NCBI GenBank assembly: GCA_003222155.1
Contig: QHUU01000076.1
Coordinates: forward strand, 1 to 34,799
Direction of reading: 5' to 3'
DNA length: 34,799 bases
Source of the DNA: Gemmatimonadota bacterium
GTDB taxonomy: Bacteria; Gemmatimonadota; Gemmatimonadetes; Gemmatimonadales; GWC2-71-9
Shown here: positions 27,826-34,799 of the stretch, piece by piece
How positions within the stretch are numbered: the stretch's first letter is position 1
How the letters are laid out: every line of letters begins with the position of its first letter
Notes under the pieces: generated by a model
Seen by the model: the letters and a program-made list of their open reading frames with translations, nothing else
Databases searched by the model: none
Told to the model about the DNA's origin: nothing
Position numbers and translations under genes: made by a program

Positions 27826-28595
27826 CACGGGCTCCGGGCCACGACGACGTCCACCACGGTGCCGGGGGCGGCCAGGGTGCCCGCCGCCGGCCGCTGCGCG
27901 ATCACGGTGCCCGGCGTCGCGTCGCCCGAGCGACGCCGCGTCACGGTACCCAGCGCGAGGCCCTCCTGCTCCAGACGGGTGCGCGCATCCGCCTGCGACA
28001 GGCCGAGCAGGCCCGGCACGGCGATGGTCGGGGCGCCCCGGCTCACGACCACCGTCACCGGCGCCCCAGGGGCCAGGAGCGTCGTGGCGGCCGGTCGGGT
28101 GAGCATCGTCACTCCGGGGGCCGCCGCGGCCTGCACCGACTCCACCTGCGCCACGGTGAGCCCGGCCGCGACGATCAGCTGCTGCGCCAGCGGTCCATCC
28201 AGTCCGGCCACGTGCGGTACCGGAATCTTGGGGGGACCGTCGCTCGACACCAGGGTCACCCGCAGCCCCGCCGGCGCGCTCACGCCGGGGGGCGGGTCCT
28301 GCCAGATGATGCTGCCCTGCGGGGCGCTGGGGTGCGACTGCGAGCCGCCGTCCTGCACCTGCAGGCCCGCCTTGCGGAGCGCGGCCGAGGCCTCCTGCAG
28401 CGACAGACCCAGCACGCGCGGGACCACGTCGTGTCCGTGCAGGATGGGGGCGGGAAAGAGAACGAGGTACGCCGTCAGATACCCTGCCACGATGGCTCCG
28501 ACGAGGGCGAGTCCCCAGCGTCGCGCCCCGGACAGGTCGCCGAGCGCGGGCAGCTTCCATGCCTGCAGCGGCGGGACGTGGCGGCGGAGCTGCAT
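27825..28595 (-). CDS. Membrane-anchored three-PASTA-domain protein
   Basis: 256 residues: a short cytoplasmic N-terminus, one membrane helix (WGLALVGAIVAGYLTAYLVLF, about 27-47) and three outward-facing PASTA domains (about 55-120, 123-190 and 192-256), each with the pattern VP.v.G.s..eA...L...GL and a closing ...PGT.V.vvvs. PASTA domains bind muropeptides or beta-lactams in PBPs and PknB-type kinases, but no kinase or transpeptidase domain is present, so this is a stand-alone sensor or scaffold. The ATG at 28595 overlaps the rsmB stop by one base. Confidence 0.88.
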   Translation of the reverse strand: MQLRRHVPPLQAWKLPALGDLSGARRWGLALVGAIVAGYLTAYLVLFPAPILHGHDVVPRVLGLSLQEASAALRKAGLQVQDGGSQSHPSAPQGSIIWQDPPPGVSAPAGLRVTLVSSDGPPKIPVPHVAGLDGPLAQQLIVAAGLTVAQVESVQAAAAPGVTMLTRPAATTLLAPGAPVTVVVSRGAPTIAVPGLLGLSQADARTRLEQEGLALGTVTRRRSGDATPGTVIAQRPAAGTLAAPGTVVDVVVARSP

Positions 28596-29839
28596 CAGGG
28601 CGTCCGCGCGAAGCGCGCCGCGTATGCACCGTCGATTCCGTCGCGCTGTGGAAGGCACCGCAGGTCGCCGTCCGGAGTGAGCAGGGCGGCCGGCACCGCG
28701 GCCGGCACGGGCGCGCGCACGAACGCGGGGTGGGAGGCGAGGAACTCGGTCACGATGTCGTGGTTCTCCTCCGGCTCGAGCGAGCAGGTACTGTAGACGA
28801 GCAATCCCCCAGGACCGACGAGTGTTGCGGCGGCCGCGAGCAGCGCCCGCTGCCGCCGGGCGGCGTGTACGATCGTGCGCGGCGTGATCCGCCAGCGGGC
28901 GTCCGGATGCCGGGCCATGGTGCCGGTGGCGGTGCACGGGGCGTCCACCAACACGGCGGACACGGTTCCCGGCGCGAACGGTGCCGACAGAAGATCGGCG
29001 ACCGTCACCCGAATCGCCACTCCCGCACGTCGCGTCGTCTCGGCCAGCCGGCGGATGCGCTCCGGCCGGGCGTCCCCCGCCACCACTCGAGCCCCGTCCC
29101 GCTCCAGCATCACGGCCTTGCCGCCCGGGGCGGCACAGGCATCGTACACGAGCGCTCCCGACGGGATCGCGGCGTAGCGGCACACGAGGGCGTGGGCGGG
29201 GTCCTGGACGATAAAGCCGCCTTCCGCGTAGCCCGGCAACCGCGAGGGGTTTGGGACTCGGGGTTCGGGGCTCGGGATCAAGCGCACTCCCGCTCCGAAT
29301 GGCGCCTCTGTTACACCGAAGCCCGCGTCCCGGAGCCGCGAGGCGAGCTCTGAGATGCTCCAGCGGACAGGCTGCAGGGTGAGGGGCGGCTTGGCGTCGT
29401 TCCACGCGATGAGCCGGTGGGTGTCCTCGAGCCCGAACTGGCGACGCCATCGCTCGAAAAGCCAGCGGGGGTGGGTATCGCCCGAATCCCGGGCCCCGAG
29501 CCCCGAGCCCCGTTGCAGTTTCCGCAGCGCCTGGTTCACGTACCTCGCCGCCGCTTCCCCCGCCGCTTCCCTCGCCAGCTCCACGCTGGTGGCGACCGCC
29601 GCGTAGGCCGGCACGCGGGCCAGGGCGGCGAGCTGGTAGGCACCAAGACGGAGGACATCGTGCAGGCGGGGGTCGGTGTGGCGCAGCCGCAGTCGGCGGT
29701 CGAGATCCGCCTGGCCCCGCAGCACGCCGGCGGCGAGCTCGTAAGCGAGCCGGCGGTCGCGCCCGGGGAGCGTGGGGAGCACCCGGTCCCGCGCCGCTTG
29801 GAACGTGCCGCCGGAGCGCACCGCCTGGAGGATGTGCAA
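28595..29839 (-). CDS. rsmB: 16S rRNA (cytosine-967-C5)-methyltransferase
   Basis: Methylates C967 of 16S rRNA. The 414-residue product has an N-terminal NusB-like RNA-binding domain (about 1-130) and a Rossmann methyltransferase domain with SAM motif VYDACAAPGGKA (232-242), and the two catalytic cysteines C302 (DAPCTATGT) and C352 (VYSTCSLEPEEN). Two peptide segments, residues about 111-121 and 189-200, are encoded by degenerate 7-base repeats and sit at places where the family is variable in length. The TTG at 29839 lacks a ribosome site; an in-frame ATT at 29872, with GAAGGA upstream, would restore the usual ARRAAL start. It follows thiG. Confidence 0.93.
   Translation of the reverse strand: MHILQAVRSGGTFQAARDRVLPTLPGRDRRLAYELAAGVLRGQADLDRRLRLRHTDPRLHDVLRLGAYQLAALARVPAYAAVATSVELAREAAGEAAARYVNQALRKLQRGSGLGARDSGDTHPRWLFERWRRQFGLEDTHRLIAWNDAKPPLTLQPVRWSISELASRLRDAGFGVTEAPFGAGVRLIPSPEPRVPNPSRLPGYAEGGFIVQDPAHALVCRYAAIPSGALVYDACAAPGGKAVMLERDGARVVAGDARPERIRRLAETTRRAGVAIRVTVADLLSAPFAPGTVSAVLVDAPCTATGTMARHPDARWRITPRTIVHAARRQRALLAAAATLVGPGGLLVYSTCSLEPEENHDIVTEFLASHPAFVRAPVPAAVPAALLTPDGDLRCLPQRDGIDGAYAARFARTP
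29246..29280. repeat. Degenerate heptanucleotide tandem repeat A inside rsmB
   Basis: Five consecutive 7-base units on the plus strand, consensus GGGGYTC: GGGGTTT, GGGACTC, GGGGTTC, GGGGCTC, GGGATCA, in perfect 7-base phase. It is read on the minus strand as proline-rich peptide (residues about 189-200 of RsmB). The G-runs could also form a quadruplex on the plus strand. Confidence 0.8.
29481..29512. repeat. Degenerate heptanucleotide tandem repeat B inside rsmB, inverted to A
   Basis: Four and a half 7-base units on the plus strand: CCCGAAT, CCCGGGC, CCCGAGC, CCCGAGC, CCCG. Its reverse complement is the GGGGCTC family of repeat A, so A and B are an inverted pair about 200 bases apart. It codes a glycine/serine/arginine segment (residues about 111-121) of RsmB. 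Confidence 0.8.
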
Positions 29840-32975: not shown

Positions 32976-33307
32976 TGGGACTTGGCTTCGATCGACCGGT
33001 TGAGGATGTTCGCGATGTTGGTGCGCATCACCACGACCCGCGACTCGCCGCTCTTCACGGTCACTTCGTCGTCCTTCAGATGCACGACCTCGCCGATGAT
33101 GCCGCCCGAGGTCACGACTTTGTCGCCGCGCTGCAGCGAGGCGAGCAGCTGGCGGTGGCGCTCCTGCTGCTTGCGCTGGGGTCGGATGAGCATGACGTAG
33201 AAGATCGCGATCAGCGCGGCGATCTGGACCAGGAAAATGGTGAGCCCGCCCGAGGCGTTCTGGCCCGAGGGGGCGAAGAGCAGCGCCAGCATGGGGTGCG
33301 CGGTCAT
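32972..33307 (-). CDS. yajC: Sec translocon accessory protein YajC
   Basis: Single-pass inner-membrane partner of SecDF/SecYEG. The 111-residue product has one helix (LTIFLVQIAALIAIFYVMLI, about 22-41), then RPQRKQQERHRQLLASLQRGD and VVTSGGIIGEVVHLKDDEVTVK, the conserved family stretch. The ATG at 33305-33307 overlaps the tgt stop as ATGA. The secD and secF genes do not follow; def does. Confidence 0.96.
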   Translation of the reverse strand: MTAHPMLALLFAPSGQNASGGLTIFLVQIAALIAIFYVMLIRPQRKQQERHRQLLASLQRGDKVVTSGGIIGEVVHLKDDEVTVKSGESRVVVMRTNIANILNRSIEAKSQ

Positions 33308-34590
33308 GCGGATCCCGATCGCAGGTAGCGGCGGCGCCAGGCATCGGTCCACGGGCCGAAGGCGTTTCGCCGGATCGCGGCCCGCATGTCCTCCGCGAGC
33401 CGGATCAGGTAGCGGACGTTGTGCAGCGACAAGAGTCTCAGGCCGAGCAGCTCTTCCGCCACGAACAGGTGCCGAAGGTAGCCCCGCGAGAACGTGGTGC
33501 ACGCCTCGCAGTCGCACGAGTCGTCGAGCGGCCGCGGGTCCTCGCGGTGCTCGGCGTTGCGAATGTTCACGGGGCCGTCGGGCGTGAAGGCCGAGCCGTT
33601 CCGCCCGTTGCGGGTCGGCGCCACGCAGTCGAACAGATCCACCCCGCGCTCCACCGCCGCCACCAGGTCTTCGGGAAACCCCACGCCCATAAGATAACGC
33701 GGCAGGGCGGGGGGGAGCCGCGGCGCGAGCGCGTCGAGCATCGCGTACATCGCGGCCTTGGGCTCGCCCACCGAGAGGCCGCCGATCGCCACGCCGGTCC
33801 AGTCGCCGAGATCCAGGATGCGTCGGAGACCCTCCGTCCGGAGCGGCACACGCGTGCCGCCTTGCAGGATGGGCCAGAGCGTCTGGTTGCACGAGGCCAC
33901 GACGCCATGTTCCAAGGAAGGCTCGGCATCGCTCGCGGAACGTGGCGTCGTGGCGTCGTGTGACGCCTTCAGCTCCTCGTGCCGTCTCCCGCACCGCTCC
34001 AACCATCTCAGCGTTCGCTCGAGGGCGTCCCTGGCCACGCTCTCGTCCGCCCCTCCCGGCACCACGTGGTCGAACGCCATCGCGACGTCGGCCCCCAGGG
34101 TCCACTGGATCTCCGTGGCGCGCTCGGGCGTGAGCCTGCGACGGCCACCGTCCACGTGGCTCTGGAACTCGACGCCGTCGTCGTCCACGCGCCGGAAGCC
34201 CTCGAGCGAGAACACCTGGAACCCGCCCGAGTCCGTGAGCAGCGGCCGGGCCCAACCCATGAAGCGGTGCAGCCCGCCGAGCTTGGCCACCACCTGCTCG
34301 CCCGGGCGCACGTGCAGGTGATAGGCGTTCGCGAGCACGAGCGTCGCGCCCGCGGCGCGGAGGTCGTTGGGCGAAAGCGCCCGCACGGTCCCCTGGGTCC
34401 CGACCGGCATGAAGACCGGGGTCTCGACGCTACCGTGCGGGAGAGTGAGGGAGCCGGCGCGGGCGGCACCGGATGTCGCGTCGATCGTGAAGTCGAACAC
34501 GCGCGGATCAACGCGGAACGCGGAAGTCGGAACGCGGAACAGGCGCTCGTCCTTCTGTTCCGCATTCCACGTTCCGCGTTCCACGTTCAC
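33304..34590 (-). CDS. tgt: Queuine/7-aminomethyl-7-deazaguanine tRNA-ribosyltransferase with repeat-coded N-terminus and insertion
   Basis: Exchanges G34 of GUN tRNAs for preQ1. The family domain starts at [16 protein letters not shown]. It shows [13 protein letters not shown] (catalytic Asp about 120), QGGTR, GGLSVGE, the nucleophilic Asp in [14 protein letters not shown] (about 321) and the zinc site CDCEAC...H. Two unusual parts: an N-terminal ~30 residues coded by an inverted heptad repeat (34510-34587), and an insertion of about 25 residues (about 207-233) coded by a second palindrome. The GTG at 34588-34590 overlaps the queA stop (GTGA), as other starts here do; GTG at 34500 would give a normal N-terminus of 398 residues without the palindrome. 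Confidence 0.93.
33898..33952. repeat. Palindrome within tgt coding the internal insertion
   Basis: Left arm CACGACGCCATGTTCC (33898-33913) and right arm GGAACGTGGCGTCGTG (33937-33952) match in reverse complement at 15 of 16 bases with a 23-base loop. A second, tandem copy of GTGGCGTC and a small hairpin (GGCGTC/GACGCC) follow to 33967. It is read in frame as part of an insertion of about 25 residues compared with usual Tgt. Confidence 0.85.
34510..34587. repeat. Heptad-based inverted repeat at the tgt 5' end
   Basis: Two arms of 33 bases (34555-34587 and 34510-34542) separated by 12 bases pair at about 28 of 33 positions. Each arm is a run of 7-base units of the GGAACGC type (for example GGAACGC, GGAACGT, GGAATGC, GGAACAG on the coding strand). 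It spans from the queA stop to just before the second possible tgt start. Confidence 0.85.
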
Positions 34591-34799
34591 ACGATCGCCA
34601 TCGCATCGCCGTAGCTGTAGAACCGATACCGTTGCTCAATGGCTTCCCCGTAGGCTCGCATGACCCGCTCATAGCCCCCGAACGCGCACACCAACATTAG
34701 CAGGGTCGAGCGCGGCAGGTGGAAGTTCGTGAGCAGCCGGTCGACCGCGCGGAACGAGTACGGGGGATGAATGAAGAGCTGGGTCTCACCGGCGCCCGG
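34587..34799 (-). CDS. queA: S-adenosylmethionine:tRNA ribosyltransferase-isomerase (3' end)
   Basis: Makes epoxyqueuosine in tRNA from SAM. Only the last 70 residues are in the window: the segment [38 protein letters not shown], and the ending [15 protein letters not shown], which is the typical QueA C-terminus. The gene runs off the right edge. Its TGA (34587-34589) overlaps the first possible tgt GTG. Confidence 0.95.

Follow-up and report, generated by a model that had tools for sequence, protein, structure and literature searches.

GGGNATC heptamer (G-quadruplex) repeats have been described in Xanthomonas and Nostoc (Rehm et al. 2015, PMC4692102). Those of Xanthomonas show a preference for four units, form 70-75 convergent pairs, occupy conserved sites and are located near stop codons (PMC4692102). 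In Geobacter metallireducens, paired tandem 7- and 8-mers and H4 elements are interpreted as regulator binding sites in the parts of the study that deal with them (PMC2700814), and repeats of the heptamer TAACTGA are known elsewhere (PMC4679880).

The repeats analysed here, found in a Gemmatimonadota bacterium and its relatives, are similar to those of Xanthomonas: they are tandem G-rich heptamers of about four units, arranged as convergent inverted pairs and placed just past stop codons between co-directional genes, at positions conserved between sister genomes. However, GGGNATC is not among the words found here (GGGRYTC, GGAACGC, GGGAAAC and others), so the repeats are of the same kind and not of the same family. 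Besides, there are many word classes per genome, both arms of a pair switch word together, and roughly half of the sequence in arrays is coding, whereas 7-11% of the Xanthomonas repeats are intragenic (PMC4692102). A single word was searched in that work, so switching would have gone unseen. The Geobacter repeats are alike in having tandem units of 7/8 nt, pairs on opposite strands, variable distance between them and both intergenic and intragenic locations; the sections devoted to them contain no cross-species comparison of words, unlike the present analysis (PMC2700814). No report of coordinated word switching or turnover was found in the open-access papers searched.

The STRR of cyanobacteria, with which the tracts of this locus had been compared in a preliminary description, are also degenerate tandem heptamers. 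The comparison holds for the general kind of bacterial heptamer repeat, but the words differ, the relation is one of analogy only, and the Xanthomonas GGGAATC repeats and the Geobacter 7-/8-mers are closer. Vioque is said to have reported in 1997 an STRR heptanucleotide repeat in a functional RNA gene, rnpB. In-frame palindromic DNA is tolerated in surface loops of housekeeping proteins in the case of the Rickettsia palindromic elements. This tolerance is shared by the elements described here, whereas those of Rickettsia are dispersed with a fixed sequence and lack word-changing heptamer arrays.

The window, which is the whole stretch of 34,799 nucleotides analysed, contains an element within the rsmB gene:

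28595..29839, minus strand: rsmB open reading frame (16S rRNA m5C methyltransferase), holding both arms
29246..29276, plus strand: arm A, (GGGRYTC)4.4
29277..29480, minus strand: 'loop' of the element, 204 bp of conserved rsmB coding sequence separating the two arms
29481..29512, minus strand: arm B, (GGGRYTC)4.6 as read on this strand

Five perfect-phase units had been claimed at 29246-29280; there are 4.4 good units up to 29276 (GGGGTTT GGGACTC GGGGTTC GGGGCTC GGG), and the fifth, GGGATCA, is degenerate. The four to five complementary units claimed at 29481-29512 correspond to 4.6 units (CCCGAAT CCCGGGC CCCGAGC CCCGAGC CCCG). In the sense strand of rsmB, arm B is the 5' G-rich arm and encodes RGSGLGARDSG, in the linker that follows the NusB-like domain, and arm A is the 3' C-rich arm and encodes ...PSPEPRVPNPS, in the loop preceding LPGYAEGG. 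Both regions differ in length among relatives, which agrees with the preliminary description of tracts on opposite strands in variable-length regions of a housekeeping gene. The two arms pair with each other in the predicted RNA of 281 nt. The tracts were rightly seen as non-random and on opposite strands, but they are not two independent tracts: they are the two arms of one dispersed inverted-repeat element with about four tandem heptamers per arm, and their words change together. A 12-mer repeat (CCGCCGCTTCCC, 2.4 copies) is found near arm B, at 29548-29576.

A second element (34510-34588) lies between queA and tgt:

34510..34542, plus strand: arm 1, GGAACGC GGAAGTC GGAACGC GGAACAG
34543..34554, no strand: loop, 12 nt
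34555..34588, minus strand: arm 2, same word as arm 1 on the minus strand

The outer end of arm 2 overlaps the queA stop codon (34587-34589). The longest tgt open reading frame (33304-34590) begins within the repeat element, and the true start is probably near 34499. In the same queA-tgt region, positions 34278-34799 overlap another contig of the assembly (C44, stretch L398) at 88% identity; this probably reflects a co-binned relative or a duplicated region. The Rfam search of the window gave no match.

To place these elements in their genomic context, 712,577 bases (70% G+C) of the 3.45 Mb genome of the window (G000) were scanned for arrays by scoring self-matches at a fixed lag against a threshold, with a third-order Markov sequence as control. 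At this threshold 60 arrays of period 7 were detected, compared with 1 in the control and with 2-11 for each of the periods 4-6, 8-13, 15 and 16 (period 14, a multiple of 7, gave 26). Chance or composition as the source of the arrays is ruled out by these counts, and the alternative considered in the preliminary description, that such tracts are no commoner than in a shuffled genome, does not hold. In 20 stretches from relatives, partly picked around array hits, 56 period-7 arrays were found. The word classes in the genome of the window include GGGRYTC, GGAACGC, GGGAAAC, GGGACGR, GGGATGC and GGTGCGC.

The arrays share a common anatomy. Among the pairs of arrays within 700 bp of each other, 42 of 47 combine inverted orientation with a shared unit class. 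The G-rich arm comes first in 15 of 16 adjacent inverted pairs of this genome, in 19 of 21 from relatives and, among the matches listed, in 33 of 35 from 80 named contigs, mostly of Xanthomonadales, Acidobacteria and Planctomycetes. This gives 67 of 72 adjacent inverted pairs, the named-contig part being among the matches listed; the remainder are ties, cross-element pairings or odd words. Since an inverted pair reads alike on both strands, the G-first order belongs to the element itself. Arm lengths cluster around 31 nt, with few above 38 nt, which corresponds to a preference for about four units per arm; short arrays are clipped by the detection threshold. The predicted hairpins are strong (z -7.5 and -8.9), and no U-run was seen by eye behind the right arms inspected.

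Several intergenic GGGRYTC pairs (L039, L043, L115, L116 and L122) have a TGCAC core in common in their loops. Three GGTGCGC elements (L048:8049-8109, L050:461-517 and L051:5349-5447) share the loop motif TC-CGGAGGCA and resemble dispersed copies, one of them with a longer loop. The loop lengths of the intergenic GGAACGC/GGATTGC elements cluster near 12, 19-20, 27, 34-37, 43-44 and 52, in steps of about 7-8.

Arrays favour intergenic sites and yet are common in genes: with a simple codon-usage gene finder, 53% of array positions are coding, versus 92% genome-wide. The location in a coding region, presented as notable in the preliminary description, is real but not exceptional, as there are dozens more. 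Between genes, arrays occur in 16 of the 129 tandem regions, in 1 of the 22 convergent ones and in 1 of the 62 divergent ones. Within genes the pairs are mostly in protein loops or linkers (RsmB, PdhC/E2, MutL and GpmI), and the hosts recognised by eye from the sequence also include a MiaB/MtaB-like protein and an OdhA/Kgd-type fusion. In PdhC/E2 the arms lie on either side of the E3-binding domain. The GpmI element has been gained or lost, the same site being empty in some congeners. The OdhA/Kgd-type fusion gene (L063:10668-14291) contains two heptamer pairs, GGGACGG and GGGRYTC, about 700 bp apart. The MtaB/MiaB-like loop (L188-L195; the copy in the genome of the window is at C17:15866-15936) is a hotspot of unrelated hairpins: one species has a heptamer pair there, another has a GTAGGGGCG...CGCCCCTAC palindrome, and others have CCCCCTCTCC...GGAGAGGGGG palindromes.

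In 11 relatives rsmB has matching arms at the same pair of sites, with a word that differs between species (GGGRYTC, GGGAAAC, GGGATGC or GGGAGC):

GGGRYTC: genome of the window (G000), G006
GGGAAAC/GGGAAGC: G001, G002, G007
GGGATGC: G005
GGGAGC types: G004, G009, G024
GGGATG types: G019

The left arm of rsmB scores on average 18.8 against its own right arm and 9.4 against those of other species (permutation p 5e-5, n=12). Own-arm matching was also found in E2 (p 0.0036) and mutL (p 0.0008), and was not significant in gpmI (p 0.24, n=5). These permutations ignore relatedness, so the result leans on the comparison of sister genomes: G000 and G001 are sisters in a five-protein tree, and yet they have different words in rsmB, mutL and gpmI. 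The order of units is not mirrored between arms (score 1358, versus 1356 for shuffled units), so there is no direct trace of recent in-register copying between arms, and this candidate was set aside. Arm mismatches show no preference for G-U over A-C (55 vs 66), so that base-level selection for RNA pairing is not visible, and this candidate was also set aside.

The sister genomes offer the clearest view of the change of words. Three-unit patterns of GGAACGC match 29 times in G000 and 3 times in G001, whereas those of GGATTGC match 4 and 55 times, respectively. Orthologous sites were mapped by their flanks, which are about 89-93% identical, and 23 intergenic sites have GGAACGC in G000 and GGATTGC in G001, with few exceptions; one of the 23 is possibly counted twice because of the C44 overlap mentioned above. 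The stretches of G001 were picked around GGATTGC matches, which biases the proportion of switched sites, the whole-genome counts being unbiased. At the mapped sites the word is replaced unit by unit, in place and in both arms, with the layout unchanged. Identity along the heptad is 0.88-0.92 for GGA, drops to 0.11 and 0.13 at the two bases of the word, and is 0.83 and 0.77 for the rest, versus 0.89 in the flanks. Irregular units, such as GGAAGTC opposite GGATTTC, are shared in place (6 vs 1.8 in non-orthologous arms, p 0.0018), and the loops between arms, though diverged, are orthologous (0 of 2000 permutations). Arms have therefore been rewritten in place, and whole-element replacement is rejected as the cause of the switch.

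Outside arrays, isolated words are similarly dense in both sisters (CGGAACG 314 vs 265 per Mb and CGGATTG 93 vs 113 per Mb), while array words do differ (133:3 vs 4:196). This argues against a general mutational bias, which was rejected, and against an uptake-sequence drive. The change of word is confined to arrays, positions and intervening sequence being inherited vertically, and it is concerted inside single arms, from one arm to its partner and among dispersed elements. Many sites, and both members of a pair, have their word overwritten, for which ordinary point mutation is not easily sufficient. In genomes with both words, 31 AC- or TT-word pairs were counted and not one couples the two, although G006 has an AC pair and a TT pair no more than 900 bp apart. 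Mixed-word arms are virtually absent (5 of 419, and none of those in this genus is convincing).

Concerted evolution driven by template switching is the best mechanism that can be proposed, although we put it forward tentatively, as somewhat short of an even chance. Slippage by 7 would homogenise the units within one arm. Foldback template switching during replication would then copy one arm onto its inverted partner, the G-rich 5' arm being used for copying when the polymerase encounters the G-rich template of the second arm. Such switching would explain why the arms match and why their order is always G-first. Rarer in-phase switches between elements, guided by the GG/CGG recurring every 7 bases, may spread the dominant word through the genome. 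Selection would leave elements mainly where the harm is small: in loops or linkers of proteins, and downstream of stop codons where neighbouring genes run in the same direction. Template-switch mutations are known to create and maintain hairpins, and foldback switching in which the two sides of a stem are rewritten has been described (PMC8794818). In those cases, as would be the case here, one event can rewrite one side of the stem from the other, with coordinated changes and with 5' and 3' arms that are asymmetric in bases; however, they concern RNA genes with short stems, whereas the present arms are tandem repeats up to about 200 nt apart with a word dominant genome-wide (PMC8794818). The main weakness of the template-switch chain is the missing intermediates: a stepwise spread should leave some mixed-word arms, and their near-absence counts against it. 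So do the unmirrored order of units in the arms, the demanding exchange between elements just about 70% alike over 30 nt, and the fact that the GG-only words GGAACGC and GGATTGC, weak predicted formers of G-quadruplexes, are also G-first. The period of 7 is left unaccounted for.

The main rival is a fast-evolving, sequence-specific reader, so that the elements would be selected hairpins or binding sites in which paired arms with a given word are needed and the word tracks the drifting reader. This is rather unlikely, about one chance in four in our judgement. It accounts for pair layouts and positions that are conserved while words change, for arms clustering around 31 nt, for words dominant across the genome, for the strong predicted hairpins and for the placement past stop codons seen in the tandem intergenic regions. 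But it fits poorly with the lack of G-U preference in mismatches, the empty GpmI site in some congeners, the isolated words left unaffected, and a set of unrelated housekeeping genes as hosts, in which the arms enclose up to about 200 nt of conserved coding sequence. Moreover, both changes per unit, in more than 100 units from 23 sites, would all have to be selected. With similar reserve, as a doubtful but not negligible reading, a trans-acting word-specific system, either rewriting or reading, may keep arms and dispersed sites in one current word and overwrite them in place in each species, coding sequence included. Mobile hairpin elements carrying different words could instead replace one another or insert repeatedly at the same permissive sites. 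The gain or loss at GpmI, the unrelated palindromes that occupy the MtaB loop in species other than the one with the heptamer pair, the loops common to some intergenic elements (TGCAC; TCCGGAGGCA) and the Y1-type transposases of 6 of 10 genus genomes would agree with this. The orthologous loops and conserved irregular units speak against it, as do the rsmB and E2 arms, which flank conserved coding sequence. Moreover, no Y1_Tnp (RAYT) match was found in G002, G007 and G008, all array carriers and two of them more than 90% complete, so Y1 transposases do not track arrays and dependence on RAYT is not supported. Mobile elements, which we consider improbable, are largely refuted for word switching and may explain the first origin of the elements.

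Less probable still is a template-copying enzyme (telomerase-like or DGR-like) that would write the word from an RNA, a change of template switching the whole genome. The single dominant word per genome, the G-strand 3' ends of both arms facing inward and the similar arm lengths would be expected from such a writer. Against it, irregular units persist in place, and no RVT_1 reverse transcriptase match was obtained in 25 genomes, with control genomes positive, a search that one divergent enzyme could escape. Marginally lower on the scale is the idea that the word serves as a signal for DNA uptake, with a dialect that tracks the receptor. Neisseriaceae DUS dialects are alike in being a genome-wide short-word dialect with a conserved core (PMC3630211), but here arrayed words change and isolated ones do not. 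Isolated words are not enriched in the dialect of the species, and DNA uptake sequences were rejected on this ground.

Heptamer arrays have hitherto been treated as products of slippage or as quadruplex sites. Here, pairs of arrays keep their position and their pairing while the word is replaced between close species, housekeeping coding regions included. They constitute a natural experiment on the concerted evolution of very short dispersed repeats, of 31 nt, on which ordinary homologous recombination should work poorly. They also carry a warning: matches between hairpin arms, usually taken as proof of a selected RNA structure, can arise without detectable selection for base-level pairing. 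As the words label each rewriting event visibly, the question of why heptamers are special in bacteria becomes testable.
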